This document shows, piece after piece, positions 3,216-41,025 of a DNA stretch of 64,000 nt (positions within the stretch are counted from its first letter, which is position 1; the number at the start of each line of letters is the position of its first letter). Source of the stretch: Liolophura sinensis. Lineage: Eukaryota > Mollusca > Polyplacophora > Chitonida > Chitonidae. The DNA lies in the NCBI RefSeq assembly GCF_032854445.1, contig NC_088297.1:15635127-15699126 (forward strand), in the 5' to 3' direction. Made by a program: the position numbers and the translations under genes. The notes under the pieces are model-generated. The model did not search any database and was not told the origin of the DNA. It saw nothing but the letters and a program-made list of their open reading frames with translations.

Positions 3216-3396
3216 TTAATCAGTAAATTTTGACAGAGAGGCTGTTGCCTGAGTGATGCTAGAATGTATTCTGTTATTATAACATAATGTTTGTCTAGTA
3301 CAACAGTTATGTTGAGTTAACAGAATATGTGTGTTATGTTTAACAGGATAATCCGATGCAATATAAGAGAATACCTTCTAGCATCACTCAGCCACA
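3216..3396. mobile_element. MITE family M1, crossing the start of large unit 1
   Basis: CCTGAGTGATGCTAGAATGT near the left is mirrored by CTTCTAGCATCACTCAG at the right. The outer left end is a diverged TIR. The large tandem unit starts inside this element at 3251. Confidence 0.7.
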
Positions 3397-3510
3397 CATT
3401 TTGTGCCTTTTTTTTTTGCTTTTTGAGACTAAGAAATATCCCATGTCAAGTTTTGTATTTCTATGAGGAAAGATACATTTTCTGTCTTGGATGAGAAAGT
3501 ACTGTTTTAT

Positions 3511-4100
3511 TCCGAGTTCTCTGGTTTCCTCCATCCGCAATGTATTACCCCGGGTTTTCTGGTTTCTTCCATCCGCAATGTTCTACCCCAAGTTCTTTGG
3601 TTCCCTCCACCCGCAATGTTTTAGCCCGAGTTCACCGATTTCCACCATGTGTTATGTAACCCAAGTTCTCTGGTTTCCTCCATACGCAATGTTTCAGCAC
3701 GAGTTCTCTGGTTTCCTACATCCTGAATGTTTTAGCCCGAGTTCTCTGGTTTCCTCCATGCGTAATGTACCCCGAGTTCTCTGGTTTCATCCATCCGCAA
3801 TGTTTTAGCCCGAATTCTCTGGTTTCCTCCAGCGTAATGTACCTTGAGTTCTCTTGTTTCCTCCATCCGCAATGTTTTAGGCCCATTTCTCTGGTTTCGT
3901 CCATCCGCAATGTTTTGCCCCGAGTTCTCTGGTTTCCTCCATGCGTAATTTACCCGATGTTCTCTGGTTTTCTCCGTCCGCAATGTTTTAGCCCAGGTTT
4001 TCTGGTTTCCTCCATCCGCAATGTTTTACCCTCCAGCCGTAATGTTTTACCCCAAGTACACTGCTTTCCTCCAGCCGTAATGTTTTACCTCGAATTCTTT
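3511..4100. repeat. 37-bp minisatellite, copy 1
   Basis: About sixteen units built on CGAGTTCTCTGGTTTCCTCC then ATCCGCAATGTTTTA. Single-base slips and shorter units (for example near 3830 and 4030) break the register. The units carry few stops, so open frames run through on both strands; these are not taken as genes. Confidence 0.93.
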
Positions 4101-4861
4101 GATTTAATGAATCTGAACACTAATCCTTTAAGTCAGAAATGGTTTTCTGGAATCGACCCCAGCCACTTTAGTGACGTATTTACGTCATTTTAATGACGCT
4201 GATCATTACACTGAAGCGTCAACAGAGCGACATCTCAAACGTAAGACCATACAGGAAAGGTATGACTATGAAAGCTGGTTAAGACCGCTATCATCATACC
4301 TTCGCACCATTGGTCCAATCGCTTCGTACTATATTGTTCTATCGCTTCGCAGTATCGTTCCATCGTCAGTGCGGTGATACGATAATGGCCTTATATTTAG
4401 TTGATTAAATATAACCCACTTTGGACTTCTGCTGGTATCCCACTGGGAGCGTTGGCGTCCAACTTGGCGGTCGACAGCGACCAATCTTCTCCGCCTTTTC
4501 TTTTTTCGCGATGATTTTTGGCAACATTGCATCTCAACACTGTAGAGAGCTGCAACATCGCTGAAACACTCGGTCACACACTCTTTCACCTAAACTTATC
4601 CCATACAAGTAACAAGGATATTCAAACGCTTTGGCGAGATATAGTAGAGAACAACATTCTGACGAGATTCCAACGAGACTAAAAGGGTATTCAGTTGAGA
4701 ATCTCGTGCAAACCTATCCATGGTTCTTCCAATGAACTTTGACACCATACAATAACAACATCTAGTGATAGGTAACAATGTATCACTGTACCACATGTTG
4801 CTAGTACATTGCGATAACACTGCGACCATCTACGACAGATGACTGAGCTAGGATGCCGGAT
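4101..4861. other. Spacer of large unit, no gene recognised
   Basis: Also at 10419-11176 and 19871-20629. It has TGACGTATTTACGTCA near its start (4172) and minus-strand frames of 86 codons rich in K/R. All three copies keep these frames, but at this low divergence that says nothing about selection. Confidence 0.5.
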
Positions 4862-5046
4862 ATTTTTATTTACTTATTTATTTGTTTATTTATTTATTTA
4901 TTTATTTATTTTGTATTTTACACCATTCTCAGTAATATTTCGCTTATACGAAGGTGGCAGGCATTATGGTGGGAGGAAACCGGGCAGGACCCGGGGTAAA
5001 CTCACTACCATCCACAGGTTGCTGCAAGACCTTCCCACGTACGTCG
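4862..5046 (-). mobile_element. SINE family I, 5'-truncated, unit 1
   Basis: Poly(TTTA) at the left is the inverted (AAAT)n tail, followed by the body inverted (TTATACGAAGGTGGCAGGCA, CATTATGGTGGGAGGAAACC). The tRNA head is absent. Confidence 0.85.
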
Positions 5047-5570
5047 AATGTTTTTAAATACATTGAAAAAGGACCGACCCACAAAATGCTTGAGCGTTGC
5101 CGCTTCACAGGGTCAACACGCAGGCATAAAGGAAGGCATTACGCAACGCCGGGATGATTCACATAGTTCCAGGTGATCACCTGAGCGTTTGTTTGCGTCT
5201 TTTTGTTCACTGCATGCAAGTCAGGAAAAATTTCTCAACTCCACGTGACACTAGTGTAGTCTTATAAACACACACACACATATATACTGTTGCCAGGAGT
5301 TACTGACATTTAATAAACATATACCACAAGAGAATATATTTTCCGCGTTGTCCCAGGGCTGTGGATATACTGAGCGTTGTTTGCCGGCGTATGCTTCAAA
5401 AGAGATCGCACAAGGTCATGTGGGAAGTGCCGTCCAGAACTTCCGTGGAAAATGTGTTTTGTGTGTAGACAATGCACGTATACCATGGCCAAGCGGTAAG
5501 ACATAAATCCACATGTTTTTTAAATAGTTTAAGACTTGTCATATGTAGGTATTGAAAGATTCACTGTGCG

Positions 5571-5640
5571 GGCCGGTACTGACCGGGATTTGAACTTCTC
5601 CACAGTTGAACTGTAGCGCTCTACCACCTGAGCTAAAGAG
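5571..5640 (-). repeat. tRNA-like motif next to satellite, unit 1
   Basis: On the minus strand an A box (TTTAGCTCAGGTGGTAGAGC), a plausible 5-bp anticodon stem CTACA/TGTGG with loop GTTCAAC, and a B box AGTTCAAATCC. The T stem and acceptor stem do not pair, so it is a tRNA relic or SINE head, not a working tRNA. Confidence 0.55.
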
Positions 5641-5763
5641 AAATCCAAGGCCCACTAATTACTGCTAGTATTAGCACTGAAAGTTGGTCGCGTAAAAAAC
5701 AAGAAAACTGAGTAAGTTGCATGTTTCGTTCAAATGACGATGGTGTTAAGAGTTCTGTTTTAA

Positions 5764-6896
5764 ACATGTACAGACAGGTGATCGATTGACAGCATGTAAA
5801 GACAACATGGTGATCCAGTGTCGACATGTAAGGACAGCATGGTGATCCATTATCACCATGTAAGGACAACATGGTGATCCAGTGTCGACATGTAAGGACA
5901 ACATGGTGATCCAGTGTCGACATGTAAGGACAACATGGTGATCCATTGTCAGCATGTAAGGACAACATGGTGATCCATTGTCAGTATGTAAGGACAACAT
6001 GGTGATCCAGTATCGACATGTAAGGACAGCATAGTGATCCATTGTCAGCATGTAAGGACAACATGGTGATCCATTGTCAGCATGTAAGGACAACATGGTG
6101 ATCCGGTGTCGACATGTAAGGACATCATGGTGATCCAGTGTCGTCATGTAAAGACAGCATGGTGATCCAGTGTCGACATGTAAGAACAACATGGTGATCC
6201 ATTGTCAGCATGTAAGGACAACATTGTGATCCAGTGTCGTCATGTAAAGACAGCATGGTGATCCAGTGTCGTCATGTAAGGGCAACATGGTGATCCATTG
6301 TCAGCATGTAAGGACAACATGGTGATCCAGTGTCAACATGTAAGAACAACATGGTGATCCATTGTCAGCATGTAAAGACAACATGGTGATCCAGTATCGA
6401 CATGTAAAGACAGCATGGTGATCCAGTGTCGACATGTAAGAACAACATGGTGATCCATTGTCAGCATGTAAGGACAACATCGTGATCCAGTGTCGACATG
6501 TAAGGGCAGCATGGTGATCCAGTGTCGTCATGTAAGAGCAACATGGTGATCCATTGTCAGCATGTAAGGACAACATGGTGATCCGGTGTCGACATGTAAG
6601 GACATCATGGTGATCCAGTGTTGACATGTAAGGACAACATTGTGACCCATTGTCAGCATGTAAGGACAGCATGGTGATCCAGTGTCGACATGTGAGGATA
6701 AAATGGTGATCCATTGTCAGCATGTAAGGACAACATGGTGATTCACTTTCAGCATATAAAGAAAACATGGTGATCCATTGTCAACATGTAAGGACAACGT
6801 GGTGATCCATTGTCAGCATGTAAAGACAACATGGTGATCCATTGTCAGCATGTAAGGACAACGTGGTGATCCATTGTCAACATGTAAAGACAACAT
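5764..6896. repeat. 32-bp satellite, copy 1 (about 35 monomers)
   Basis: The monomer starts GTGATCCATTGTCAGCATG and ends TAAGGACAACATG. Common variants are CAGTGTCGAC and CAGTATCGAC in the middle, and AAAGACAG for AAGGACAA. The minus strand is free of stops in all three frames over long runs. The array ends at 6896, directly against sequence that in copies 2 and 3 lies 2.75 kb further on. Confidence 0.95.
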
Positions 6897-6900
6897 CTTT

Positions 6901-9048
6901 AACAATCATTATTCATCTCCCTTGAGTTCTGGGAGAGATACGTGTAGGTTGGCAAATTCTGATCTCATTGGTGTGTGGCACAGCTCGTGCACTGAAAAAC
7001 CAAATGTTTAACATTTAAACATCTGTGCAGCAGATAATAAATGTGCTTAATGTTTAATTGTAACGTGTTTAATACTTAAATACTTAAACATGTTTATCCA
7101 ACAATTGATAATAAGGCCGCTTTATAATGTTGATCATATACGTTGGAAACTTTAATTCACTCCGTTTAAGCAATAAACCCTTCAATTTACTACATAAATT
7201 ATTGCATTCAGGCTATAAATTTAAGTATTTATAAAATACTGCATGTATTTATAAAATAAAGCAATATATTTTATGAAAAATACGTGTGAATCTGAAAAAT
7301 AAACACACCTTGAACATGTTAAAAGTAACCATTTATTATAGTGTGTGCACTTGCTACCGATCAAAATAGTTCATGAATTGCCTTAAATGTATAAAACAGA
7401 TCAAATTATAGCTTTTGGAACTTTGGAATCATTTTAACGCTCTAAATAGTATAGGCACGAGTCCGATATTTACTGAAAGGCATTAATTTGGTAAGCACGT
7501 TTATTATATGTTGCAGAAATATGTTTAAATGATAAATATTTGTTTTTTCAGTGTGCATGTCACGTGATCTATAAGGCGCGTCTAGTTTTAGCTTGAAGTT
7601 GTGGTTGTCGTGTCATGTGAATATTTTTAAGTGACGCGTAAAAACCCAATCAAAGAAATAAATCTATTCCATGGCGATTTCGTAATATTAATCGTGTCAT
7701 ATACGATTACCACATGCATGTACCGCTCAATATGAGAGTTCGCATTAAACACCGTTCACTGCTCCATTAAAACCAGTTTTCTTAAACATGATTTTTTTAT
7801 TATTAAAAAACAAAACAAATAAAAAACAAAACAAAAACAAAACAACTAATACATGAGCATTTACGCCCCTGTCTAAGTTTGGTTCTAATTTTACTGCGCC
7901 ATGTTTGGCCTCCTGTTTACATGACATCTGTAGGTACATATGTACATGTATGGCTAAGACTCAGTACTACGACACAATTTGTTCATATGTGGGCCAATTT
8001 GTGAGCCAGAGGCATCTTACCAATGCGGTGACTGTGGGTTCAAGTCCAGGTCATGCTAGCTTCCTCTCCGGTCGTACGTGGGAAGGTCTGCAGCAACCTG
8101 CGGAGGGTCATGGGTCTCTGTCCGCGTCTCCTAGAAAAATTTGAACCGAAACTACAGTGTTTAACTGCGAATTACGGCCTTGTAATATTTCTGTTTATAC
8201 TAGAAATAAATGTAAACAAAATCAGGAACTGATGTTCATGGAGCGATTCAATGTGAACTCGTTTTTACATGGGAGAATGATCATAAAGCTGAACTTTCTG
8301 CATTTTTTCTCCGGTAGCCGATTTATGCATTTTCAGAAAAAGTCAACCTCTGTATCTTGATCTTTTTATACCATTTACTTAATTTTGTTAGTATTTGCTA
8401 GATCTGTTACGACCCAAAAATGCGAAAATTAATGCATTCACGAAAATTAATGAACATTACCATGTATGGATGTTGAAGATCACTGGGCAAAGTTCGTGCA
8501 AAATATATAGAGGCTTACGTTTCTTTCCATTCTCCGCGAAAGAAATTGTGACTTATATGACGTCAAAGAAAATGTTGTCACTGTTCTAGAATTACACCAA
8601 ATGCTGTGTTGTCATCCCATTTAACATACAACCACATTAAAACAATATTGAAGGGACCAAGCATCGGGGATACTGTTTCCACCAATAGAATCCTAGTTTT
8701 ATGCAGGAATATAATTTAATTAAAAACGTACACCATAGAGAGAAAACTAAAGGAGCGACGGCAGTGTGATAGTTGGTAAATAGTTACACGAATATAACCG
8801 GTGAAATACGGCCTCTTGACTCAACCAGGGTATTGTACTATCTGTTCGTGTAGATGCGTAAAAAGCTGCAATTTACACGCCCCCGTAGCACCATGGCTTA
8901 AGCAGAATTAAGTCAAAGAAAATGCAGTGATGGTAATTGCAATTTTGTATACGTCGCTAGCCTAGAATTACTCAAAATGGCTGCCCACTTATGTAGGCAT
9001 GCTCATGTATGGTTACTATGTACACCAAAAAAAATAAAATAATAATAA
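6901..9048. other. Tail of large unit, no gene recognised
   Basis: Also at 16378-18508 and 28206-30352. AT-rich, with one truncated SINE. Words at 8575-8650 and 8925-8990 resemble each other and the stretch at 48215-48260 (GAATTACTCAAAATG), suggesting another old dispersed repeat. Confidence 0.5.
7950..8142 (+). mobile_element. SINE family I, 3'-truncated, unit 1
   Basis: Contains the head-body junction: CACCAATGCGG-like spacer, B box GGGTTCAAGTCC, then GCTTCCTCTCCGGTCGTACG and CAACCTGCGGAGGGTCATGG. It lacks the (AAAT)n tail. Confidence 0.75.
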
Positions 9049-9280
9049 TCTGTTAATTTTAACAGAAAGTCTGTTGTCTGAGTGATTCTAGATTTTATTC
9101 AGTTATTGCAGCAGGCTATTCTCTTCAATATAACACACATATTCTACTAAATCGACATAAACATTCCTTTAGACTAACAGGATGTTATGTTGAAAATGAC
9201 AGAAAATTAGGCCTATGCGACAATAACAAAGTACATTCCATCATCACTCAAACAACAGACTTTCTGTTAGAATTAACAGG
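9049..9280. mobile_element. Complete MITE family M1, unit 1
   Basis: The terminal inverted repeats are about 37 bases with about two mismatches: the left end runs TCTGTTAATTTTAACAGAAA to GAGTGAT (9049-9087), and the right end is its inverse (about 9243-9280). No coding capacity. The first bases are themselves a palindrome. Confidence 0.8.
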
Positions 9281-9374
9281 TTAATTTTTTGAGTGTATAA
9301 GTGGGGTTTCATATCTGGGTTCCTCGTTCTGCAACAGCATTACGAAGACAGTATGACAGCATATTTATTTTATT

Positions 9375-9510
9375 TAGACTGTTTATTTTGATTTGGGTCT
9401 TAATGACCTAAACAAACATTTTTCACTTATACGACGGCGATTATATCTGTTTGTGAATATAACCGGAGTGCCCGGAATAAACCAACCAATCCTTCGCTCG
9501 GTACCTAACA
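9375..9510. repeat. Possible diverged SINE piece, unit 1 (copies near 18845 and 30685)
   Basis: TTTATTTTGATTTGG, then TTTTTCACTTATACGACGGC shares words with the inverted tail of family I; the rest differs. It is repeated in each large unit. Confidence 0.4.
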
Positions 9511-9563
9511 ATCCCCCTGATTAAAATCCACTGTCTAAACAGCCAGAGCTGGATTCGATCACT

Positions 9564-9712
9564 GAGTGATGATAGAATGTATTCTGTTATCATAACATAA
9601 TGTTTGTCTAGTACAACAGTTATGTTGAATTAATAGAATATGTGTGTTATATTTAAGAGGATAATCCGATGCAATATAACAGAATACCTTCTAGCATCAT
9701 TCAGCCACACAT
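9564..9712. mobile_element. Truncated MITE M1 at junction of units 1 and 2
   Basis: Begins at GAGTGATGATAGAATG without its outer left TIR, because the tandem join cuts the element. The right part ends CTAGCATCATTCAGCC. Confidence 0.75.
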
Positions 9713-9826
9713 TTTGTGCCTTTTTGTTTTTTTGCTTTTTGAGACTAAGAAATATCCCATGTCAAGTTTTGTATTTCTATGAGGAAATATACATTTTCTG
9801 TCTTGGATGAGAAAGTACTGTTTTAT

Positions 9827-10418
9827 TCCGAGTTCTCTGGTTTCCTCCATCCGCAATGTATTACCCCGGGTTTTCTGGTTTCTTCCATCCGCAATGTTCT
9901 ACCCCAAGTTCTTTGGTTCCCTCCATCCGCAATGTTTTAGCCCGAGTTCACCGGTTTCCACCATGTGTTATGTAACCCAAGTTCTCTGGTTTCCTCCATA
10001 CGCAATGTTTCAGCACGAGTTCTCTGGTTTCCTACATCCTGAATGTTTTAGCCCGAGTTCTCTGGTTTCCTCCATGCGTAATGTACCCCGAGTTCTCTGG
10101 TTTCATCCATCTGCCATGTTTTAGCCCGAATTCTCTGGTTTCCTCCAGCGTAATGTACCTTGAGTTCTCTTGTTTCCTCCATCCGCAATGTTTTAGGCCC
10201 ATTTCTCTGGTTTCGTCCATCCACAATGTTTTGCCCCGAGTTCTCTGGTTTCCTCCATGCGTAATGTACCCCATGTTCTCTGGTTTTCTCCGTCCGCAAT
10301 GTTTTACCCCAAGTTTTCTGGTTTCCTCCATCCGCAATGTTTTACCCTCCAGCCGTAATGTTTTACCCCAAGTACACTGCTTTCCTCCAGCCGTAATGTT
10401 TTACCTCGAATTCTTTGA
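9827..10418. repeat. 37-bp minisatellite, copy 2
   Basis: Same number and order of variant units as at 3511-4100, with point changes only, so this array was copied whole with the large unit and has not changed length since. Confidence 0.93.
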
Positions 10419-11176
10419 TTTAATGAATCTAAACACTAATCCTTTAAGTCAGAAATGGTTTTCTGGAATCGACCCCAGTCACTTTAGTGACGTATTTACG
10501 TCATTTTAATGACGCTGATCATTACACTGAAGTGTCAATAGGGCGACGTCTCAAACGTAAGACCATACAGGAAAGGTATGACTATGAAAGCTGGTTAAGG
10601 CCGCTATCATCATACCTTCGCACCATTGGTCCAATCGCTTCGTACTATATTGTTCTATCGCTTCGCAGTATCGTTCCATCGTCAGTGCGGTGATACGATA
10701 ATGGCCTTATATTTAGTTGATTAAATATGACCCACTTTGGACTTCTGCTGGTATCCCACTGGGAGCGTTGGCGTCCAACTTGGCGTTCGACAGCGACCAA
10801 TCTTCTCCGCCTTTTCTTTTTTCGCGATGATTTTTGGTAACATTGCATCTCAACACTGTAGAGAGCTGCAACATCGCTGAAACACTCGGTCACACACTCT
10901 TTCACCTAAACTTATCCCATACAAGTAACAAGGATATTCAAACGCTTTGGCGAGATATAGTAGAGAACAACATTCTGACGAGATTCCAACGAGACTAAAA
11001 GGGTATTCAGTTGAGAATCTCGTGCAAACCTATCCATGGTTCTTCCAATGAACTTTGACACCATTCAATAACAACATCTAGTGATAGATAACAATGTATC
11101 ACTGTACCACATGTTGCCAGTACATTGCGATAACACTGCGACCATCTACGACAGATGACTGAGCTAGGATGCCGGG

Positions 11177-11357
11177 TATTTTTATTTACTTATTTATTTG
11201 TTTATTTATTTATTTATTTTGTATTTTACACCGTTCTCAATAATATTTCGCTTATACGAAGGTGGCAGGCATTATGGTGGGAGGAAACCGGGCAGGACCC
11301 GGGTGAAACTCACTACCATCCACAGGTTGCTGCAAGACCTTCCCACGTACGGTACGT
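11177..11357 (-). mobile_element. SINE family I, 5'-truncated, unit 2
   Basis: Counterpart of 4862-5046 with a shorter TTTA tail and an extra GGTAC near its right end. Confidence 0.85.
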
Positions 11358-11883
11358 CGAATGTTTTTAAATACGTTGAAAAAGGACCGACCCACAAAAT
11401 GCTTGAGCGTTGCCGCTTCACAGGATCAGCACGCAGGCATAAAGGAAGGCATTACGCAACGCCGGGCTGATTCATATAGTTCCAGGTGATCACCTGAGCG
11501 TTTGTGTGTGTCTTTTTTTTTCACTGCATGCAAGTCAGGAAAAATTTCTCAACTCCACGTGACACCAGTGTAGTCATATAAACACACACACATATATACT
11601 GTGGCCAGGAGTTACTGACATTTACTAAACATATACCACAAGAGAATATATTTTCCGCGTTGTCCCAGGGTTGTGGATATACTGAGCGTTGTTTCCGGCG
11701 TATGCTTCAAAAGAGAGCACATAAGGTCATGTGGGAAGTGTCGTCCAGAACTTCCGTGGAAAATGTGTTTTGTGTGTAGACAATGCACGTATACCATGGC
11801 CAAGCGGTAAGACATAAATCCACATGTTTTTTTTAAATAGTTTAAGACTAGTCATATGTAGGCATTGATAGATTAACTGTGCG

Positions 11884-11951
11884 GGCTGGTACTGACCGGG
11901 ATTTGAACTTCTCCACAGTTGAACTGTAGCGCTCTACCACCTGAGCTAAAG
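11884..11951 (-). repeat. tRNA-like motif next to satellite, unit 2
   Basis: Counterpart of 5571-5640 with both boxes intact. Confidence 0.55.
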
Positions 11952-12094
11952 AGAAATCCAAGGCCCACTAATTACTGCTAGTATTAGCACTGAAATTTGG
12001 TCGCGTAAGAAACAAGAAGAACTAACTGAGTAAGTTGCATGTTTCGTTCAAATGACGATGGTGTATGGAGTTCTGTTTTAAACATGTACAGCCT

Positions 12095-13630
12095 GGTAAT
12101 CCATTGTCAGCATGTAAGGACAGCATGGTGATCCAGTGTCGACATGTAAGGACAGCATGGTGATCCAGTGTCGACATGTAAGGACAAAATGGTGATCCAG
12201 TATCGATATGTAAGGACAACATGGTGATCCATTGTCAGTATGTAAGGACAGCATGGTGATCCATTGTCAGCATGTAAAGACAACATGGTGATCCATTGTC
12301 AGCATGTAAGGACAACATGGTGATCCATTGTCAGCATGTAAAGACAACATGGTGATCCATCGTCAGCTTTTAAGGATAACATGGTGATCCAGTGTCGACA
12401 TGTAAGGACAACATGGTGATCCAGTGTTGACATGTAAGGACAACATGGTGATCCAGTGTCAGCATGTAAGGACAACGTGGTGATCCATTGTCAGCATGTA
12501 AAGACAACATGGTGATTCATTGTCAGCATGTAAGGACAACATGGTGATCCAGTGTCAGTACGTAAGGACAACATTGTGATCCAGTGTCGACATGTAAGGG
12601 CAGCATGGTGATCCAGTGTCGACATGTAAGGACAACATGGTGATCCAGTATCGATATGTAAGGACAACATGGTGATCCATTGTCAGTATGTAAAAACAAC
12701 ATGGTGATCCAGTAACGACATGTAAGGACAACATGGTGATCCATTGTCAGCATATAAGGACAACATGGTGATCCATTGTCAACATGTAAGGACAGCATGG
12801 TGATCCAGTGTCGACATGTAAGGACAACATGGTGATCCAGTGTCAGCTTGTAAGGATAACATGGTGATCCAGTGTCGACATGTAAGGACAGCATGGTGAT
12901 CCAGTGTTGACATGTAAGGACAACATGGTGATCCATTGTGAGCATGTAAGGACAGCATGGTGATCCAGTGTCAACATGTAAGGACAACATGGTGATCGAT
13001 TGTCAGCATGTAAGGACAGCATGGTGATCCAATGTCGACATGTAAGGACAGCATGGTGATTCAGTGTCGGCATGTAAGGACAACATGGTGATCCAGTATC
13101 GATATGTAAGGACAACATGGTGATCCATTGTCAGTATGTAAAAACAACATGGTGATCCAGTAACGACATGTAAGGACAACATGGTGATCCATTGTCAGCA
13201 TATAAGGACAACATGGTGATCCATTGTCAGGATGTAAGGACAACAGGGTGATCCATTGTCAGCATGTAAAGACAACATGGTGATCCATTGTCAGCATGTA
13301 AGGACAACATGGTGATCCATTGTCAACATGTAAGGACAGCATAGTGATCCATTGTCGACATGTAAGGACAACATGGTGATCCAGTGTCAGTACGTAAGGA
13401 CAACATGGTGATCCATTGTAAACATGTAAGGACAGCATGGTGATTCAGTGTCGACATGTAAGGACAACATTGTGATCCAATGTCGGCATGTAAGGACAAC
13501 ATGGTGATCCATTGTCAGCATGTAAGGACAGCATGGTGATCTATTGTCAGCATGTAAGGACAACATGGTGATCCATTGTCGATATGTAAGACGAGCCTGG
13601 TAATTAAATGACGATATGTAAGTACAGCGC
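12095..13630. repeat. 32-bp satellite, copy 2 (about 48 monomers)
   Basis: Same monomer as copy 1. The ordered variant run starting TCGATATG at 12651 recurs at 13099, 448 bases or 14 monomers later, showing a block duplication inside the array. The last monomers (from about 13590) are decayed. Confidence 0.95.
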
Positions 13631-13916
13631 GATGTTCCAGTCTCATCATCTGATTCTTCATATAATCGTTTATCCCTTACGTGACAGAATAGCTGACATA
13701 CGAGAAGAGAAGGGATGTGCCATTGTCATTGATAGGTGTGTCCGATTTCTCGACAAAATGAAATCAGGAATTCAATTATTCAAATTTCATTCAGGATCGG
13801 GGATTTACACATTCCATGTGTTGTTTTGATTCTTTTCATGAGTTAAAGCTTGTCTCCCATTGCCAATATTAAGAACATATAGAGAGAGTATAGAAAAAAA
13901 ATGGATGAATAAATGC

Positions 13917-14275
13917 TTGGGGTTTAACGTCGTACTTAACAATGTTTCAATCATATCTCGACGAGGACAAGGACACATACAAACAGAGCGAGCCCATGTC
14001 ACCAAAGTGCTGCCTCCACTGAAGTTTCATGCCGAAGACACCAGACATGACACCCCATTTAGTCACATTATACTGACATCGAGCCAATTAGTCATATGTT
14101 TTTCCTCTATAACATCTCATTTCCGGTTCTGATTAATTGCTCTAACCTCTCAGAGTTGAGACAAACAAGCGAGGCAACAACAAGTACCCACTTTTAATCT
14201 TCGGTATGAAGTGACCCAGGATTGATCCAGGGTCTCCCGGCTTATAGGCGGACGCTATAAGAATTAGGTAGTGTA
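13917..14275 (-). mobile_element. SINE family II, unit 2
   Basis: Minus-strand copy: the tail at the left (GTTTAACGTCGTACTTAACA then ATCATATCTCGACGAGG) and the tRNA-like B box at the right (inverse of GGATTGATCCAGGGTC). Confidence 0.65.
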
Positions 14276-14760
14276 GAAAAATGCTAAGATGTGAGAGAGT
14301 TTATGGCTAGTCGTTTGGTATTATTGTCTGCCTTTAATCTGAAATGTTAAGCTGTGAACATTTCTTTAGTATTGAAATCATACATCTTAAGTGCTGTAAA
14401 ATGTGAGTATCAACATTTTAAAATTTAGGCCGCATATACATTCATAATGCGGAACATTTTAAGACAAACGATTACCCTACTTCCTTAACCTTTCCGCATA
14501 TGAAAGAGCAACTTTCAGTGCAGTTTATGCAAATTTTAATTTGATTTGGTTGGTTGGATTGGCTAGTGTCAGTACTCCAGTGTCATAACGTATAATTGTA
14601 TCTGTCAACATGGAATAATGCATTCAGAATGTGCTTGAGTAAACAACATGCAAACGCACGAAAAGGTTGAAGAATTACGATACAAAATTTCGTAAGCATG
14701 TTGTCACATGCTAAATTTGTAATACTTTTACAGATACTAAATCTGCTAGCATGTAACATT

Positions 14761-14818
14761 ATACGACGTCGTATAAGTGAGATATTCTTGAGCGCAGCGT
14801 AAAACACCTATCAAATCA
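14761..14818 (+). mobile_element. SINE family I 3' tail fragment, unit 2
   Basis: ATAAGTGAGATATTCTTGAG and GCGTAAAACACC match the last 60 bases of the SINE body. Nothing else of the element is present. Confidence 0.7.
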
Positions 14819-14871
14819 CTATAACATAATAATAAATGCTTTCCCCCAAGAAGTCCACCATTGCCAAAATG

Positions 14872-15270
14872 TCGGAGTTAACATTACTAATGCTATAAAC
14901 AGTATAACATTTCAGTTCTTATGTCGCTAGTTCTTGTTGCTTACGATCAGGCGACCTGCTAAAATGCTGCGAAAATTAAGTGGCCGCTTTTCTTTGGTCG
15001 CAATATGGTTGCAGTGCATCGCGAGATGTGCAAGCATTACTCGCGCTCACTTGTAGGGTTCGCAATGTTTATCGCTAAATGTGGTACAGCTACCGTCGGG
15101 TCCTCACATGCTTGCAAGGATACATGTACATGTAGCCATTAGGCGAGAGCGCATGTGGGCGCGAAAAGTCTGGTCGCATACATTATGTCGTAAGGGCATC
15201 GAAAAGAGTCGCAATATATGATTGCTGTCGGTCCCTGTTGCGACGTTTCTGGCAATATAGACAACTCCGA
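14872..15270. mobile_element. Possible inverted-repeat element (about 400 bp), unit 2
   Basis: The outer 8 bases TCGGAGTT (14872-14879) and AACTCCGA (15263-15270) are inverted, and the interior repeats GTCGCAAT/GTTGCGAC words. The terminal match is short, so this may be chance. Confidence 0.25.
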
Positions 15271-15642
15271 TCTGTTTCTGGTATCTATAGAGCCGATACT
15301 CGTATAACGCAAATGATAGGTCTACTTAGCTGACGGATGATAAATTTAGTTAAAGTCAATCGAATAAGTATCAGTGGATGTATTTCATAGGGCAATATAT
15401 GCCACACTTCATATAATACCTGTTTGACGTTTCTAAGTGATTTCGGCCATAATATAACTTAGAAAATGAAGCAATTATCAGATCTTTTTTCCGTATTGCC
15501 TTGATTAAATGTACGAAAATTTATTCCAGCGAACCCATTTTTAAACTAAATCCACTTGGGGAATAGAGTGATTTTTTATTGTGAAGCAGACAGAAGGAAA
15601 CAATAGTAAGTATTAAATCTGATATGCACATGAAATGTAGAC

Positions 15643-18508: not shown

Positions 18509-18733
18509 TCTGTTAATTTTAACAGAAAGTCTGTTGTCTGAGTGATTCTAGATTTTATTCAGTTATTGCAGCAGGCTATTCTCTTCAATATAACACACAT
18601 ATTCTACTAAATCAACATAAACATTCCGTTAGACTAACAGGATGTTATGTTGAAAATGACAGAATATTATGCGATAATAACAAAGTACATTGCATCATCA
18701 CTCAAACAACAGACTTTCTGTTAGAATTAACAG
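18509..18733. mobile_element. Complete MITE family M1, unit 2
   Basis: Counterpart of 9049-9280, with a small internal deletion (no AGGCCTATGC stretch) shared with copy 3. Confidence 0.8.
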
Positions 18734-19017
18734 GTTAATTTTTTGAGTGTATAAGTGGGCTTTCATATCTGGGTTCCCCGTTCTGCAACAGCATTACGAA
18801 GACAGTATGACAGCATATTTATTTTATTTAGACTGTTTATTTTGATTTGGGTCTTAATGACCTAAACAAACATTTTTCACTTATACGACGGCGATTATAT
18901 CTGTTTGTGAATATAACCGGAGTGCCCAGAATAAACCAACCAATCCTTCGCTCGGTACCTAACAATCCCCCTGATTAAAATCCACTGCCTAAACAGCCAG
19001 AGCTGGATTCGATCACT

Positions 19018-19168
19018 GAGTGATGATAGAATGTATTCTGTTATCATAACATAATGTTTGTCTAGTACAACAGTTATGTTGAATTAATAGAATATGTGTG
19101 TTATATTTAAGAGGATAATCCGATGCAATATAACAGAATACCTTCTAGCATCATTCAGCCACACAATT
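19018..19168. mobile_element. Truncated MITE M1 at junction of units 2 and 3
   Basis: Same truncation point as at 9564, showing the second junction was copied from, or made the same way as, the first. Confidence 0.75.
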
Positions 19169-19278
19169 TGTGCCTTTTTTTTTTTGCTTTTTGAGACTAA
19201 GAAATATCCCATGTCAAGTTTTGTATTTCTATGAGGAAAGATACATTTTCTGTCTTGGATGAGAAAGTACTGTTTTAT

Positions 19279-19870
19279 TCCGAGTTCTCTGGTTTCCTCC
19301 ATCCGCAATGTATTACCCCGGGTTTTCTGGTTTCTTCCATCCGCAATGTTCTACCCCAAGTTCTTTGGTTCCCTCCATCCGCAATGTTTTAGCCCAAGTT
19401 CAACGGTTTCCACCATGTGTTATGTAACCCAAGTTCTCTGGTTTCCTCCATACGCAATGTTTCAGCACGAGTTCTCTGGTTTCCTACATCCGGAATGTTT
19501 TAGCCCGAGTTCTCTGGTTTCCTCCATGCGTAATGTACCCCGAGTTCTCTGGTTTCATCCATCCGCAATGTTTTAGCCCGAATTCTCTGGTTTCCTCCAG
19601 CGTAATGTACCTTGAGTTCTCTTGTTTCCTCCATCCGCAATGTTTTAGGCCCATTTCTCTGGTTTCGTTCATCCGCAATGTTTTGCCCCGAGTTCTCTGG
19701 TTTCCTCCATGCGTAATGTACCCCTTGTTCTCTGGTTTTCTCCGTCCGCAATGTTTTACCCCAAGTTTTCTGGTTTCCTCCATCCGCAATGTTTTACCCT
19801 CCAGCCGTAATGTTTTACCCCAAGTACACTGCTTTCCTCAAGCCGTAATGTTTTACCTCGAATTCTTTGA
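19279..19870. repeat. 37-bp minisatellite, copy 3
   Basis: Same structure as the arrays at 3511 and 9827. Its stable length contrasts with the neighbouring 32-bp satellite. Confidence 0.93.
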
Positions 19871-20629
19871 TTTAATGAATCTGAACACTAATCCTTTAAG
19901 TCAGAAATGGTTTTGTGGAATCGACCCCAGTCACTTTAGTGACGTATTTACGTCATTTTAATGACGCTGATCATTACACTGAAGCGTCAATAGAGCGACA
20001 TCTCAAACGTAAGACCATACAGGAAAGGTATGACTATGAAAGCTGGTTAAGACCGCTATCATCATACCTTCGCACCATTGGTCCAATCGCTTCGTACTAT
20101 ATTGTTCTATCGCTTCGCAGTATCGTTCCATCGTCAGTGCGGTGATACGATAATGGCCTTATATTTAGTTGATTAAATATGATCCACTTTGGACTTCTGC
20201 TGGTATCCCACTGCGGGCGTTGGCGTCCAACTTGGCGTTCGACAGCGACCAATCTTCTCGGCCTTTTCTTTTTTCGCGATGATTTTTGGCAACATTGCAT
20301 CTCAACACTGTAGAGAGCTGCAACATCGCTGAAAAACTCGGTCACACACTCTTTCACCTAAACTTATCCCAAACAAGTAACAAGGATATTCAAACGCTTT
20401 GGCGAGATATAGTAGAGGACAACATTCTGACGAGATTCCAACGAGACTAAAAGGGTATTCAGTTGAGAATCTCGTGCAAACCTATCCATGGTTCTTCCAA
20501 TGAACTTTGACACCATTCAATAACAACATCTAGTGATAGGTAACAATGCATCACTGTACCACATGTTGCTAGTACATTGCGATAACACTGCGACCATCTA
20601 CGACAGATGACTGAGCTAGGATGCCGGGT

Positions 20630-20815
20630 ATTTTTATTTACTTATTTATTTGTTTATTTATTTATTTATTTATTTTGTATTTTACACCGTTCTCAATAAT
20701 ATTTCGCTTATACGAAGGTGGCAGGCATTATGGTGGGAGGAAACCGGGCAGGACCCGGGTGAAACTCACGACCATCCACAGGTTGCTGCAAGACCTTCCC
20801 ACGTACGGTACGTCG
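20630..20815 (-). mobile_element. SINE family I, 5'-truncated, unit 3
   Basis: Counterpart of the copy at 11177, sharing the GGTAC duplication. Confidence 0.85.
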
Positions 20816-21334
20816 AATGTTTTTAAATACGTTGAAAAAGGACCGACCCACAAAATGCTTGAGCGTTGCCGCTTCACAGGATCAGCACGCAGGCATAAAG
20901 GAAGGCATTACGCAACGCCGGGATGATTCATACAGTTCCAGGTGATCACCTGAGCGTTTGTGTGTGTCTTTTTTTTTCACTGCATGCAAGTCAGGAAAAA
21001 TTTCTCAACTCCACGTGACACCAGTGTAGTCATATAAACACACACACATATATACTGTGGCCAGGAGTTACTGACATTTACTAAACATATACCACAAGAG
21101 AATATATTTTCCGCGTTGTCCCAGGGTTGTGGATATACTGAGCGTTGTTTGCCGGCGTATGCTTCAAAAGAGAGCATACAAGGTCATGTGGGAAGTGCCG
21201 TCCAGAACTTCCGTGGAAAATGTGTTTTGTGTGTAGACAATGCACGTATACCATGACAAAGCGGTAAGACATAAATCCACATGTTTTTAAAAATAGATTA
21301 AGACTAGTCATATGTAGGCATTGATAGATTAACT

Positions 21335-21410
21335 GTGCGGCTGGTACTGACCGGGATTTGAACTTCTCCACAGTTGAACTGTAGCGCTCTACCACCTGAG
21401 CTAAAGAGAA
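21335..21410 (-). repeat. tRNA-like motif next to satellite, unit 3
   Basis: Counterpart of 5571-5640 with both boxes intact. Confidence 0.55.
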
Positions 21411-21549
21411 ATCCAAGGCCCACTAATTACTGCTAGTATTAGCACTGAAATTTGGTCGCGTAAGAAACAAGAAAAACTAACTGAGTAAGTTGCACGTTTC
21501 GTTCAAATGACGATGGTGTATGGAGTTCTGTTTTAAACATGTACAGCCT

Positions 21550-24500
21550 GGTATTCCATTGTCAGCATGTAAGGACAGCATGGTGATCCAGTGTCGACAT
21601 GTAAGGACAGCATGGTGATCCAGTGTCGACATGTGAGGACAAAATGGTGATCCAGTATCGATATGTAAGGACAATATGGTGATCCATTGTCAGTATGTAA
21701 GGACAACATGGTGATACAGTAACGACATGTAAGGACAACATGGTGATCCATTGTCAGCATATAAGGACAACATGGTGATCCATTGTCAACATGTAAGGAC
21801 AATATGGTGATCCATTGTCAGCATGTAAGGACAACATGGTGATCCATTGTCAGCATGTAAAAACAACATGGTGATCCATTGTCAGCTTGTAAGGATAACA
21901 TGGTGATCCAGTGTCGACATGTAAGGACAACATGGTGATCCATTGTCAACATGTAAGGACAACATGGTGATCCATTGTCAGCATGTAAGGACAATATGGT
22001 GATCCATTGTCAGCATGTAAGGACAACATGGTGATCCATCCTCAGCTTTTAAGGATAACATGGTGATCCAGTGTCGACATGTAAGGACAACATGGTGATC
22101 CAGTGTTGACATGTAAGGACAACATGCTGATCCAGTGTCAGCATGTAAGGACAGCATGGTGATCCATTGTCAGCATGTAATGACAGCATGGTGATCCATT
22201 GTCAGCATGTCAGGACAACATGGTGATTCACTTTCAGCATATAAAGAAAACATGGTGATCCAGTGTCAACATGTAAGGACAACGTGGTGATCCATTGTCA
22301 GTATGTAAGGACAACATGGTGATCCATTGTCAACATGTAAGGACAACATGGTGATCCGTTGTCAGCATGTAAGGACAACAGGGTGATGCAGTAACGACAT
22401 GTAACAACAACGTGGTGATCCAGTGTCGACATGTAAGGACAACATGGTGATCCAGTATCAATATGTAAGGACAACATGGTGATCCATTGTCAGTATGTAA
22501 GGACAACATGGTGATCCAGTAACGACATGTAAGGACAACATGGTGATCCATTGTCAGCATATAAGGACAACATGGTGATCCATTGTCAACATGTAAGGAC
22601 AACATGGTGATCCGTTGTCAGCTTGTAAGGACAACAGGGTGATGCAGTAACGACATGTAACAACAACATGGTGATCCAGTAACGACATGTAAGGACAGCA
22701 TGGTGATCCAGTGTCGACATGTAAGGACAAAATGGTGGTCCAGTGTCAACATGTAAGGACAACATGGTGATCCATTGTCAGCATGTAAAGACAACATGGT
22801 GATCCATTGTCAGCATGTAAGGACAATATGGTGATCCATTGTCAGCATGTAAAGACAACCTGGAGATCCAGTGTCAGCTTGTAAGGATAACATGGTGATC
22901 CAGTGTCGACATGTAAGGACAGCATGGTGATCCAGTGTTGACATGTAAGGACAACATGGTGATCCATTGTCAGCATGTAAGGACAGCATGGTGATCCATT
23001 GTCAGCATGTAAGGACAATATGGTGATCCATTGTCAGCATGTAAGGACAACATGGTGATCCATCCTCAGCTTTTAAGGATAACATGGTGATCCAGTGTCG
23101 ACATGTAAGGACAACATGGTGATCCATTGTCAGCATGTAAAAACAACATGGTGATCCATTGTCAGCATGTAAGGACAACATGGTGATCCATTGTCAGCAT
23201 GTAAAGACAACATGGTGATCCATTGTCAGCATGTAAGGACAACATGGTGATCCATTGTAAACATGTAATGACAACATGGTGATCCAGTGTAGACATGTAA
23301 GGACAACATGGTGATCCATTGTCGACATGTAAGGACAACATGCTGATCCATTGTCGACATGTAAGGACAACATGCTGATCCAGTGTTGACATGTAAGGAC
23401 AATATGGTGATCCAGTGTTGACATGTAAGGACAACATGGTGATCCACTGTAAACATGTAAGGACAACATGGTGATCCAGTGTAGACATGTAAGGACAACA
23501 TGGTGATCCATTGTCGACATGTAAGGACAACATGGTGATCCATTGTCGACATGTAAGGACAACATGGTGATCCAGTGTTGACATGTAAGGGCAAAATGGT
23601 GATCCAGTGTTGACATGTAAGGACAACATGGTGATCCAGTGTCGACATGTAAGGACAACATGGTGATCCACTGTCAACATGTAAGGACAGCATGGTGATC
23701 CAGTGTCGACATGTAATGACAACATGGTGATCCAGTGTTGACATGTAAGGACAACATGGTGATCCATTGTCAACAAGTAAGGGCAGCATAGTGATCCATT
23801 GTGGACATGTAAGGACAGCATGGTGATCCATTGTCGACATGTAAGGAGAGCATGGTGATCCATTGTCGACATGTGAGGACAACTCTGTGATCCATTGTCG
23901 GCATGTAAGGACAACATGGTGATCCAGTGTCAGTACGTAAGGACAACATTGTGACCCATTGTCAGCATGTAAGGACAGCATGGTGATCCATTGTCGACAT
24001 GTAAGGAAAACATTGTGATCCAATGTCGGCATGTAAGGACAACATGGTGATCTATTGTCAGCATGTAAGGACAACATGGTGATCCATTGTCAGCATGTAA
24101 GGACAACATGGTGATCCATTGTAAACATGTAAGGACAACATGGTGATCCAGTGTAGACATGTAAGGACAACATGGTGATCCAGTATCGGCATGTAAGGAC
24201 AACATGGTGATCCAATGTCAGGATGTAAGGAAAGCATGGTGATCCATTGTCAGCATGTAAAGACAACATGGTGATCCATTGTCAGCATGTAAGGACAACA
24301 TGGTGATCCATTGTCAGCATGTAAAGACAACATGGTGATCCATTGTCAGCATGTAAGGACAACATGGTGATCCATTGTAAACATGTAAGGACAACATGGT
24401 GATCCAGTGTAGACATGTAAGGACAACATGGTGATCCATTGTCGACATGTAAGGACAACATGCTGATCCAGTGTCGACATGTAAGGACAACATGCTGATC

Positions 24501-25453
24501 CAGTGTTGACATGTAAGGACAACATGGTGATCCAGTGTTGACATGTAAGGACAACATGGTGATCCACTGTAAACATGTAAGGACAACATGGTAATCCAGT
24601 GTAGACATGTAAGGACAACATGGTGATCCATTGTCGACATGTAAGGACAGCATGGTGATCCACTGTAAACATGTAAGGACAACATGGTGATCCAGTAACG
24701 ACATGTAAGGACAACATGGTGATCCATTGTCGACATGTAAGGACAGCATGGTGATCCATCCTCAGCTTTTAAGGATAACATGGTGATCCAGTGTCAACAT
24801 GTAAGGACAAAATGGTGATCCAGTATCGATATGTAAGGACAACATGGTGATCCATTGTCAGCATGTAAGGACAACATGGTGATCCATTGTCGACATGTAA
24901 GGACAACATGGTGATCCATTGTCGACATGTAAGGACAACATGGTGATCCACTGTCAACATATAAGGACAGCATGGTGATCCATTGTCAACATGTAAGGAC
25001 AGCATAGTGATCCATTGTGGACATGTAAGGACAACATGGTGATCCAGTGTCGACATGTAAGAACAACATGGTGATCCACTGTCAACATATAAGGACAGCA
25101 TGGTGATCCATTGTCAGCATGTAAAGACAACATAGTGATCCATTGTGGACATGTAAGGACAACATGGTGATCCAGTGTCAGTACGTAAGGACAACATGGT
25201 GATCCATTGTCAGCATGTAAGGACAGCATGGTGATCCAGTGTCGACATGTAAGGACAACATTGTGATCCAATGTCGGCATGTAAGGACAACATGGTGATC
25301 CAGTGTCAGTATGTAAGGACAGCATAGTGATTCATTGTAAACATATAAGGACAACATGGTGATCTATTGTCAGCATGTAAGGACAACATGGTGATCCATT
25401 GTCGATATGTAAGACGAGCCTAGTAATTAAATGACGATATGTAAGTACAGCGC
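21550..25453. repeat. 32-bp satellite, copy 3 (about 122 monomers)
   Basis: The longest array. A series of about eight distinctive variants (AAACATG, GTAGACATG, CATGCTGATCC twice, GTTGACATG twice, and so on) at about 23226-23490 recurs in the same order at about 24346-24610, exactly 1120 bases or 35 monomers later. The longest minus-strand open frame, 283 codons (23226-24077), is purely satellite. Confidence 0.95.
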
Positions 25454-25736
25454 GATGTTCCAGTCTCATCATGTGATTCTTCATATAATCATTTATCCCT
25501 TACGTGACAGAATAGCTGACATACGAGAAGAGAAGGGATGTGCCATTGTCATTGATAGGTGTGTCCGATTTCTAGACAAAGTGAAATCAGGAATTCAATT
25601 ATTCAAATTTTATTCAGGATCGGGGATTTACACATTCCATGTGTTGTTTTGATTCTTTTCATGAGTTAAAGCTTGTCTCCCATTGCCAATATTAAGAACA
25701 TATAGAGAGAGTATAGAAAAACATGGATGAATAAAT

Positions 25737-26095
25737 GCTTGGGGTTTAACGTCGTACTTAACAACGTTTCAATCATATCTCGACGAGGAGTCAATAAGTT
25801 TGTGTACACATACAAACAGAGCGAGCCCATGTCACCAAAGTGCTGCCTCCACTGAAGTTTCATGCCGAAGACACCAGACATGACACCCCATTTAGTCACA
25901 TTATACTGACATCGAGCCAACTAGTCATATGTTTTTCCTCTATAACATCTCATTTCCGGTTCTGATTAATTGCTCTAACCTCTCAGAGTTGAGACAAACA
26001 AGCGAGGCAACAACAAGTACCCACTTTTAATCTTCGGTATGAAGTGACCCAGGATTGATCCAGGGTCTCCCGGCTTATAGGCGGACGCTATAAGA
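25737..26095 (-). mobile_element. SINE family II, unit 3
   Basis: Counterpart of 13917-14275. It differs by the insertion AGTCAATAAGTTTGTGTACA near 25790, which the 49460 copy suggests is closer to the original. Confidence 0.65.
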
Positions 26096-26592
26096 ATTAG
26101 GCAGTGTAGAAAAATGCTAAGATGTGAGAGAGTTTATGGCTAGTCGTTTGGTATTATTGTCTGCCTTTAATCTGAAATGTTAAGCTGTGAACATTTCTTT
26201 AGTATTGAAATCATACATCTTAAGTGCTGTGAAATGTGAGTATCAACATTTTAAAATTTAGGCCGCATATACATTCATAATGCGGAACATTTTAAGACAA
26301 ACGATTACCCTACTTCCTTAACCTTTCGGCATATGAAAGAGCAACTTTCAGTGCAATTTATGCAAATTTTAATTTGATTTGGTTGGTTGGATTAGCTAGT
26401 GTCAGTACTCCAGTGTCATAACGTATAATTGTATCTGTCAACATGGAATAATGCATTCGGAATGTGCTTGAGTAAACAACATGCAAACGCACGAAAAGGT
26501 TAAAGAATTACGATACAAAATTTCGTAAGCATGTTGTCACATGCTAAATTTGTAATACTTTTACAGATACTAAATCTGCTAGCATGTAACAT

Positions 26593-26650
26593 TATACGAC
26601 GTCGTATAAGTGAGATATTCTTGAGCGCAGCGTAAAACACCTATCAAATC
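26593..26650 (+). mobile_element. SINE family I 3' tail fragment, unit 3
   Basis: Counterpart of 14761-14818. Confidence 0.7.
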
Positions 26651-26704
26651 ACTATAACATAATAATAAATGCTTTCCCCCAAGAAGTCCACCATTGCCAA
26701 AATG

Positions 26705-27104
26705 TCGGAGTTAACATTACTAATGCTATAAACAGTATAACATTTCAGTTCTTATGTCGCTAGTTCTTGTCGCTTACGATCAGGCGACCTGCTAAAAATG
26801 CTGCGAAAATTAAGTGGCCGCTTTTCTTTGGTCGCAATATGGTTGCAGTGCATCGCGAGATGTGCAAGCATTACTCGCGCTCACTTGTAGGGTTCGCAAT
26901 GTTTATCGCTAAATGTGGTACAGCTACCGTCGGGTCCTCACATGCTTGCAAGGATACATGTACATGTAGCCATTAGGCGAGAGCGCATGTGGGCGCGAAA
27001 AGTCTGGTCGCATACATTATGTCGTAAGGGCATCGAAAAGAGTCGCAATATATGATTGCTGTCGGTCCCTGTTGCGACGTTTCTGGCAATATAGACAACT
27101 CCGA
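26705..27104. mobile_element. Possible inverted-repeat element, unit 3
   Basis: Counterpart of 14872-15270 in copy 3, with one extra A. A 69-codon open frame within it is not conserved in copy 2. Confidence 0.25.
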
Positions 27105-27476
27105 TCTGTTTCTGGTATCTATAGAGCCGATACTCGTATAACGCAAATGATAGGTCTACTTAGCTGACGGATGATAAATTTAGTTAAAGTCAATCAAATA
27201 AGTATCAGTGGATGTATTTCATAGGGCAATATATGCCACACTTCATATAATACCTGTTTGACGTTTCTAAGTGATTTCGGCCATAATATAACTAGGAAAA
27301 TGAAGCAATTATCAGATCTTTTTTCCGTATTGCCTTGATTAAATGTACGAAAATTTATTTCAGCGAACCCATTTTTAAACTAAATCCACTTGGGGAATAG
27401 AGTGATTTTTTATTGTGAAGCAGACAGAAGAAAACAATAGTAAGTATTAAATCTGATATGCACATGAAATGTAGAC

Positions 27477-27746
27477 CTAGAATGCAACACAGGATATAGC
27501 GTACAAGCCCGTATTGCCAGTGCGGTTGGAAATGCCTAGAAAATCAAATTCGACGTATGAAAACTCGGAATCTAAAGTCCGACCAGAGATGTAATTGTCA
27601 TAAACCGTAAATTTAACGTTGTCCACTATGGGTTTTAATTGATACGGCAGTATATTTACTTCTGTGTATAGCTAGAATCCATCTGGAAAATGGCATGCTT
27701 TGATACAAATTCCCAAGTTATATGGCCAGCTAGACGGGTTGGCCAT
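27477..27746 (-). pseudogene. Counterpart of the 15643-15912 frame, broken by a stop
   Basis: Same sequence as in copy 2 except for point changes. The tyrosine codon of GFYLY has become TAG (complement of 27672-27674). At least this copy cannot make the full product. Confidence 0.3.
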
Positions 27747-29255
27747 TTATGACGTCACCAGCTGTGATTTACCTGGTAGTAAATCTTTGGTTTTTGGTGG
27801 ATTTAAAGTCATAATTACTCTGAGGCCCTCCTGGTAACATAATGTTAAACAGATTATAATCTTTATACTTAAGACAAGTAGCTAAATCTGGACACTAATT
27901 ATTAAAGCTCGCCACACCTCTTCAGTCCACCCATTTTATTGTTAATTAAACTGCACGCCTGTAATTGATACGTAGCATACATTTATATATGATTTGTACT
28001 CGTTCACATTAAATAAAACCACAAAAGTAAATATAACCGCGTTTCAAATTCAAGGAGTGGCAATTTTATTTGGGTAAATTCTCACCGCAAGATCCAGGAT
28101 ATTGGGAAACCATTACATCTGTATATAATCGTATATCCTTTTTTTTAGCAAAATCCTGCATATAAACATAACTTATACGTTATTTCAATCTGCAGGTTTT
28201 ATAGCAACAATCATTATTCATCTCCCTTGAGTTCTGGGAGAGATACGTGTACGTTGGCAAATTCTGATCTCATTGGTGTGTGGCACAGCTCGTGCACTGA
28301 AAAACCAAATGTTTAACATTTAAACATCTCTGCAGCAGATAATAAATGTGCTTAATGTTTAATTGTAACGTGTTTAATACTTAAATACTTAAACATGTTT
28401 ATCCAACAATTGATAATAAGGCCGCTTTATAATGTTGATCATATACGTTGAAAACTTTAATTCACTCCGTTTAAGCAATAAACCCTTCAATTTACTACAT
28501 AAATTATTGCATTCAGGCTATACATTTGAGTATTTATAAAATACTGCATGTATTTATAAAATAAAGCAATATATTTTATGAAAAATACGTGTGAATCTGA
28601 AAAATAAACACACCTTGAACATGTTAAAAGTAACCATTTATTATAGTGTGTGCACTTGCTACCGATCAAAATAGTTCATGAATTGCCTTAAATGTATAAA
28701 ACAGATCAAATTATAGCTTTTGGAACTTTGGAATCATTTTAACGCTCTAAATAGTATAGGCACGAGTCCGATATTTACTGAAAGGCATTAATTTGGTAAG
28801 CACGTTTATTATATGTTGCAGAAATATGTTTAAATGATAAATATTTGTTTTTTTCAGTGTGCATGTCACGTGATCTATAAGGCGCGTCTAGTTTTAGCTT
28901 GAAGTTGTGGTTGTCGTGTCATGTGAATATTTTTAAGTGACGCGTAAAAACCCAATCAAAGAAATAAATCTATTCCATGGCGATTTCGTAATATTAATCG
29001 TGTCATATACGATTACCACATGCATGTACCGCTCAATATGAGAGTTCGCATTAAACACCGTTCACTGCTCCATTAAAAACCAGTTTTCTTAAACATGATT
29101 TTTAGTATTGAAAAACAAAACAAATAAAAAACAAAACAAAAACAAAACAACGAGTACATGGGCATTTACGCCCCTGTCTAAGTTTGGTTCTAATTTTTAC
29201 TGCGCCATGTTTGGCCTCCTGTTTAAATGACATCTGTAGGTACATATGTACATGT

Positions 29256-29447
29256 ATGGCTAAGACTCAGTACTACGACACAATTTGTTCATATGTGGGC
29301 CAATTTGTGAGCCAGGGGCATCTCACCAATGCGGTCGCTGTGGGTTCAAGTCCAAGCCATGCTAGCTTCCTCTCCGGTCGTACGTGGGAAGGTCTGCAGC
29401 AACCTGCGGAGGGTCATGGGTCTTCTGCCCGCGTCTCCTAGAAAAAT
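29256..29447 (+). mobile_element. SINE family I, 3'-truncated, unit 3
   Basis: Counterpart of 7950-8142. Confidence 0.75.
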
Positions 29448-30352
29448 TTGAACCGAAACTACAGTGTTTAACTGCGAATTACAGCCTTGTAATATTTCTG
29501 TTTTTACTAGAAATAAATGTAAACAAAATCAGGAGCTGATGTTCATGGAGCGATTCAATGTGAACTCGTTTTTACATGGGAGAATGATCATAAAGCTGAA
29601 CTTTCTGCATTTTTTCTCCGGTAGCCGATTTATGCATTTTCAGAAAAAGTCAACCTCGGTATCTTGATCTTTTTATGCAATTTACTTAATTTTGTTAGTA
29701 TTTGTTAGATCTGTTACGACCCGAAAATACGAAAATTAATGCATTCACGAAAATTAATGTACATTACCATGTATGGATGTTGAAGATCACTGGGCAAAGT
29801 TCGTGCAAAATATATAGAGGCTTACGTTTCTTTCCATTCTCCGCGAAAGAAATTGTGACTTATATGACGTCAAAGAAAATGTTGTCACTGTTCTAGAATT
29901 ACACCAAATGCTGTGTTGTCATCCCATTTAACATACAACCACATTAAAATAATATTGAAGGGACCAGGCATCGGGGATGCTGTTTCCACCAACAGAATCC
30001 TAGTTTTATGCAGGAATATAATTTAATTAAAAACGTACACCATAGAGAGAAAACTAAAGGAGCGACGGCAGTGTGATAGTTGGTAAATAGTTACACGAAT
30101 ATAACCGGTGAAATACGGCCTCTTGACTCCACCAGGGTATTGGTACTATCTGTTCGTGTAGATGCGTAAAAAGCAGCAATTTACACGCCCCGGTAGCACC
30201 ATGGCTTAAGCAGAATTAAGTCAAAGAAAATGCAGTGATGGTAATTGCAATTTGTTATACGTCACTAGTCTAGAATTACTCAAAATGGCTGCCCACTTAT
30301 GTAGGCATGCTCATGTACGGTTACTATGTACACCAAAAAAAAATAATAATAA

Positions 30353-30578
30353 TCTGTTAATTTTAACAGACAGTCTGTTGTCTGAGTGATTCTAGATTTT
30401 ATTAAGTTATTGCAGCAGGCTATTCTCTTCAATATAACACACATATTCTACTAAATCAACATAAACATTCCGTTAGACTAACAGGATGTTATGTTGAAAA
30501 TGACAGAATATTATGCGATAATAACAAAGTACATTCCATCATCACTCAAACAACAGACTTTCTGTTAGAATTAACAGG
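30353..30578. mobile_element. Complete MITE family M1, unit 3
   Basis: Counterpart of 18509-18733 and nearly identical to it. Confidence 0.8.
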
Positions 30579-30948
30579 TTAATTTTTTGAGTGTATAAGT
30601 GGGCTTTCATATCTGGGTTCCCCGTTCTGCAACAGCATTACGAAGACAGTATGACAGCATATTTATTTTATTTAGACTGTTTATTTTGATTTGGGTCTTA
30701 ATGACCTAAACAAACATTTTTCACTTATACGACGGCGATTATATCTGTTTGTGAATATAACCGGAGTGCCCAGAATAAACCAACCAATCCTTCGCTCGGT
30801 ACCTAACAATCCCCCTGATTAAAATCCACTGCCTAAACAGCCAGAGCTGGATTCGATCACTCGACCACATTAGCCAAACCCCTGTTTAGTTTCATTCGTT
30901 TATTTATTGCTTTATTGATTTGGTGGGGTGGGGTGTGGTGTGGAGGTT

Positions 30949-41007: not shown

Positions 41008-41025
41008 ACTGAATGAGTACTCCCA

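Follow-up and report, generated by a model that had tools for sequence, protein, structure and literature searches.

How three direct copies of a sequence several kilobases long came to lie head to tail in a chiton genome, and whether there are truly three of them, are the questions raised by a locus in scaffold_11 of the Liolophura japonica assembly (PMC11068029). The window, that is, the whole stretch of 64,000 nucleotides analysed here, spans 15635127-15699126 of that scaffold and contains the following copies.

3251..9563, + strand: copy 1, 6313 bp, without the middle stretch of ~2.8 kb
9564..19017, + strand: copy 2, 9454 bp
19018..30861, + strand: copy 3, 11844 bp

The coordinates, the lengths and the zero spacer between the abutting copies, all part of the original prediction, were exact when rechecked in the sequence. 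In the pairwise alignment outside the satellites that had been proposed as a check, self-BLAST paired all copies with each other over their non-satellite parts, and differences were counted outside a 32-bp array. The locus thus consists of adjacent direct copies longer than 1 kb with more than 90% identity, as in a tandem segmental duplication, and a chance origin of the triplication is out of the question. Word and similarity searches were run over the assembly of 609,464,459 bases in 632 contigs. The head of the unit (3251-4500) gave three full-length matches, all inside the window, the other matches covering its first 155 bases only (40 of the 1424 candidates were scored). When the right edge served as the query, the matches to copies 1 and 2 ended at window base 30861, a full match to the edge being confined to the three copies. 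As a base rate, taken from a single small sample, one control stretch of 200 kb on another scaffold (C8) showed no direct duplication of at least 500 bp at 85% identity or more, except for one array with offsets at multiples of 30 bp. This array, a satellite seen in the BLAST offsets, lies at about 130-2223 of the control stretch.

Within the unit, the repeat arrays and the middle stretch are placed as follows.

3503..4089, + strand: 38-bp satellite of copy 1
9819..10405, + strand: 38-bp satellite of copy 2
19271..19857, + strand: 38-bp satellite of copy 3
5777..6896, + strand: 32-bp minisatellite of copy 1, 35 units
12094..13580, + strand: 32-bp minisatellite of copy 2, 46 units
21555..25413, + strand: 32-bp minisatellite of copy 3, 120 units
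13581..16377, + strand: middle stretch of copy 2, absent from copy 1
25414..28205, + strand: middle stretch of copy 3, absent from copy 1
6896..6901, + strand: putative deletion scar of copy 1

The differences in length among the copies come from the 32-bp array (35, 46 and 120 units) and from the ~2.8 kb missing in copy 1. In copies 2 and 3, a decaying satellite is followed by this ~2.8 kb, while in copy 1 only some filler bases, at the scar, lie between the satellite and the unit's right part, and the gap in copy 1 is probably a deletion. All 79 occurrences in the assembly of a 21-base word from the 32-bp unit fall within the three copies. The longest array (21555-25413, ~120 units) shows 0% indels by TRF, and long open stretches occur in all three of its minus-strand frames.

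Each of the two outer edges of the array lies in a dispersed repeat.

3211..3390, + strand: MITE-like dispersed element across the outer left edge, with its ends placed visually
30662..30870, + strand: decayed SINE-like element across the outer right edge
30350..30595, + strand: another MITE-like element, within the unit near its right end, found with the right-edge genome query

The first ~140 bases of the unit are part of a dispersed MITE-like family, and the 45 bases to the left of copy 1 match this family above all 500 shuffles at six of the eight element ends tested (at the other two, L006 and L007, they do not exceed the shuffles), whereas the equivalent 45 bases at the joins never score above 5 at any of the eight. 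On the right, a SINE-like consensus built from nine copies in the window aligns through the edge at 30861 with a score of 93, whereas the best of 300 shuffles reached 40; the match past the edge comprises only nine bases, all of them identical. Because both edges continue through old dispersed repeats, the outer edges of the array are ancestral, and the join brings two unrelated repeats together without homology. As it fuses the insides of these repeats, it did not originate by homologous recombination from one dispersed repeat to another. Elsewhere in the window, a 35-bp satellite at 41024-41311 starts just to the right of a MITE-like element at ~40810-41010.

The two internal joins carry an identical word at an identical position in the unit, as had been predicted.

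9557..9571, + strand: join 1, reading GATCACTGAGTGATG
19011..19025, + strand: join 2, the same word as join 1, GATCACTGAGTGATG

The words quoted in the original prediction for the joins and for the edges (outer right at 30855, outer left at 3247) are exact in the sequence. Furthermore, an 18-base word spanning the join occurs only twice in the whole assembly, at these two joins, while its reversed control occurs once; the units thus have in common a novel junction that is absent elsewhere in the assembly. Only the bases CT are common to the two sides of the join, no more than chance provides, since two or more common bases were found in 17% of 100,000 random joins drawn from the window. Therefore the sharing of CT is little proof of any pathway, and blunt end joining, microhomology joining and template switching are indistinguishable at this length. 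The proposal of one microhomology-type event accordingly stands in its first half, a single founding join of unrelated, non-homologous sequences as the edge repeats indicate, while its microhomology is weak. The join is also a 13-base near-perfect palindrome, ATCACT-G-AGTGAT, with six-base arms, and a similar one arises at 326 of the 100,000 random joins (0.33%); being spotted post hoc, it is given little weight.

The divergence among the copies bears on the order in which they arose. Outside the 32-bp array, copies 1 and 2 differ at 117 of 5154 sites, copies 1 and 3 at 123 of 5166, and copies 2 and 3 at 118 of 7940, the last total taking in the stretch missing from copy 1; divergence is 1.5-2.4% overall and 1.49% between copies 2 and 3. 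In the left part, the odd one out is copy 1 at 48 sites, copy 2 at 15 and copy 3 at 25, which departs from a star (p 6e-5). Changes polarised by the repeat families, for which some outgroup majorities are only 0.6, are common to copies 2 and 3 at five sites, to copies 1 and 2 at one and to copies 1 and 3 at none, with two sites left unassigned and 10, 2 and 2 singletons in copies 1, 2 and 3. In agreement with the original prediction, copies 2 and 3 would thus be sisters, and by these site patterns the relation is established in the left part. Satellite unit types favour this pairing too: those exclusive to one pair number nine for copies 2 and 3, four for copies 1 and 3 and none for copies 1 and 2, although copy 1 has the fewest units. 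In the right part, a star is not rejected (31, 22 and 19 for copies 1, 2 and 3; p 0.20), copy 3 stands out least, and over the first 1500 columns the odd one is most often copy 2 (18 of 42 sites). Sites of the same type cluster along the alignment, with 86 like neighbours against 58.7 expected (a count reached in 0 of 5000 permutations). Patches of conversion are thereby suggested, but the clustering is no longer significant once the sites are declustered (p 0.11).

Unequal exchange between copies had been proposed as the step following the founding event. After a simple unequal crossover, copy 2 should resemble copy 3 to the left of a switch point and copy 1 to its right, but no such switch was seen in copy 2, the best change point having p 0.086 with only 160 sites, nor does the right part, where copy 3 is the least odd, bear this footprint. 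With this pattern absent, any route from two to three units is a putative one. The term "recent" holds in a relative sense only, given 1.5-2.4% between copies in an animal whose heterozygosity is 1.24%. An exchange between homologues already 1.24% apart could yield the divergence of copies 2 and 3 immediately, and the age of the third copy may then be far less than its divergence implies.

The reading that we consider likely is a neutral, non-coding tandem segmental duplication founded by one non-homologous join, with a third unit gained later by exchange or repair between units. A single repair of a break or a collapsed fork would have fused the inside of the SINE-like repeat at the right end to the inside of the MITE-like repeat at the left end, with no homology beyond chance, giving two head-to-tail units of ~10 kb each. 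Interaction of these units with each other, by homologous exchange, gene conversion or replication repair, would then have produced a third one, leaving copies 2 and 3 the most alike. Copy 1 would afterwards have shed ~2.8 kb together with part of its minisatellite, and the length of the 32-bp array would have shifted independently in every copy.

Copy number is the point at which this reading meets its most serious rival, since the figure of three comes from one assembly. According to passages of the assembly report (PMC11068029), HiFi reads at 14X with a mean of 8,347 bp were assembled by hifiasm, treated with purge_dups and scaffolded with Omni-C, and heterozygosity is 1.24%. The mean read is therefore shorter than copies 2 and 3, and because these two differ about as much as two alleles do, an assembly error would most readily concern the third copy: there may be two units per chromosome, with two alleles of one unit strung in a row. 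False duplications caused by divergent haplotypes are documented in parts of another report (PMC9516828), and those heterotype cases are likewise copies about as different as two alleles; the chiton copies differ from them in carrying an exact novel junction twice. A glued haplotig would need the reads of join 1 to be used twice for the same word to stand at the same base at both joins. Moreover, the longest identical run of copies 2 and 3 is 401 bases over their aligned non-satellite parts, purge_dups was applied, the window contains zero N, and the search with the unit head revealed no additional allelic contig among the 40 of 1424 candidates scored. The divergence of 1.49% also slightly exceeds 1.24% (one-sided p 0.03), though non-coding DNA may surpass the genome mean. 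An assembly error in the third copy is, on this balance, improbable but the likeliest of the alternatives.

A single event could instead have made all three copies, by replication template switching or through a reinserted circular intermediate, with gene conversion homogenising copies 2 and 3 later. The star-like right part and the clustering of same-type sites would fit it, but the left part is clearly not star-like and the clustering weakens once declustered, and we regard this course as unlikely. Far less credible is a mobile element inserted in tandem. Genome matches to the head start at unit base 1 and at first resemble an element end; however, they start near there because the query itself began at that base, inside an element. 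The unit head was rejected as a mobile-element terminus after five matches were inspected, which showed the MITE-like element running on to the left of copy 1. The right edge lies within a repeat as well, full-length matches to the head were found at the three copies only (among the candidates scored), and the flanks show no target-site duplication beyond CT.

Macrosatellites and minisatellite loci are tandem arrays of kilobase units that hold a length-variable minisatellite, and the present locus resembles them in this design. It differs in having just three units, known here from one animal's assembly. That the locus is an active hotspot of this kind, in which the private 32-bp minisatellite stalls replication and drives gain and loss of units, making both the number of units and the length of the array variable among living chitons, is doubtful, slightly more so than the single-event origin. 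The palindrome at the joins would also be consistent with an inverted pairing during the founding repair. Comparable to the preferred course of one non-homologous join are the tandem segmental duplications produced by MMIR/BIR in yeast, which, as described in passages of PMC2518615, are also head-to-tail copies with one common junction and no long homology, with breakpoints in dispersed repeats or unique DNA. The non-homologous yeast joins in these passages have 5-10 bp of microhomology or low-complexity DNA, in contrast to 2 bp, within chance, in the chiton. Among the matches listed in a literature search for chitons with segmental or tandem duplication or minisatellite, nothing concerned this locus. 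General views are unaffected by it; it provides one dated non-coding tandem duplication in a mollusc whose ancestral edges and join are all readable, and it warns that in a heterozygous animal copies diverging at the level of alleles call for a read check before the copy number is trusted.

As for the content of the unit, the Pfam scan covered all 23 stop-to-stop frames of at least 60 aa from the non-satellite stretches of copy 3 (19858-21545 and 25414-30861), plus another five: three from the satellite, one from the 38-bp array and one from copy 2. None of these 23 and five frames reached the cut-off. Matches below it were to Trim66 B-box (E 0.048), C1_2 (E 0.018) and DHODB_Fe-S_bind (E 0.094), and in satellite frames to zf-HC2 (E 0.00064), Hydrophob_seed (E 0.00079 and 0.0048), Flavi_glycoprot (E 0.057) and Headcase (E 0.048), the chance level expected for repetitive letters. 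Rfam at gathering thresholds and an ARAGORN tRNA scan of the window yielded nothing. The original prediction that no gene is amplified fits these scans, but, contrary to its remark that this is odd, gene-free content seems unremarkable to us in a neutral duplication. From its sequence, the locus is apparently a gene-free and ordinary non-coding tandem segmental duplication, of a known kind. Outside the array, the plus strand carries a frame with ankyrin repeats at 48326-48958 (Pfam Ank, E 3.5e-23) and, at 59390-59719, a frame that resembles an exon and matches a CRAL/TRIO domain in its N-terminal part (E 1.9e-9).
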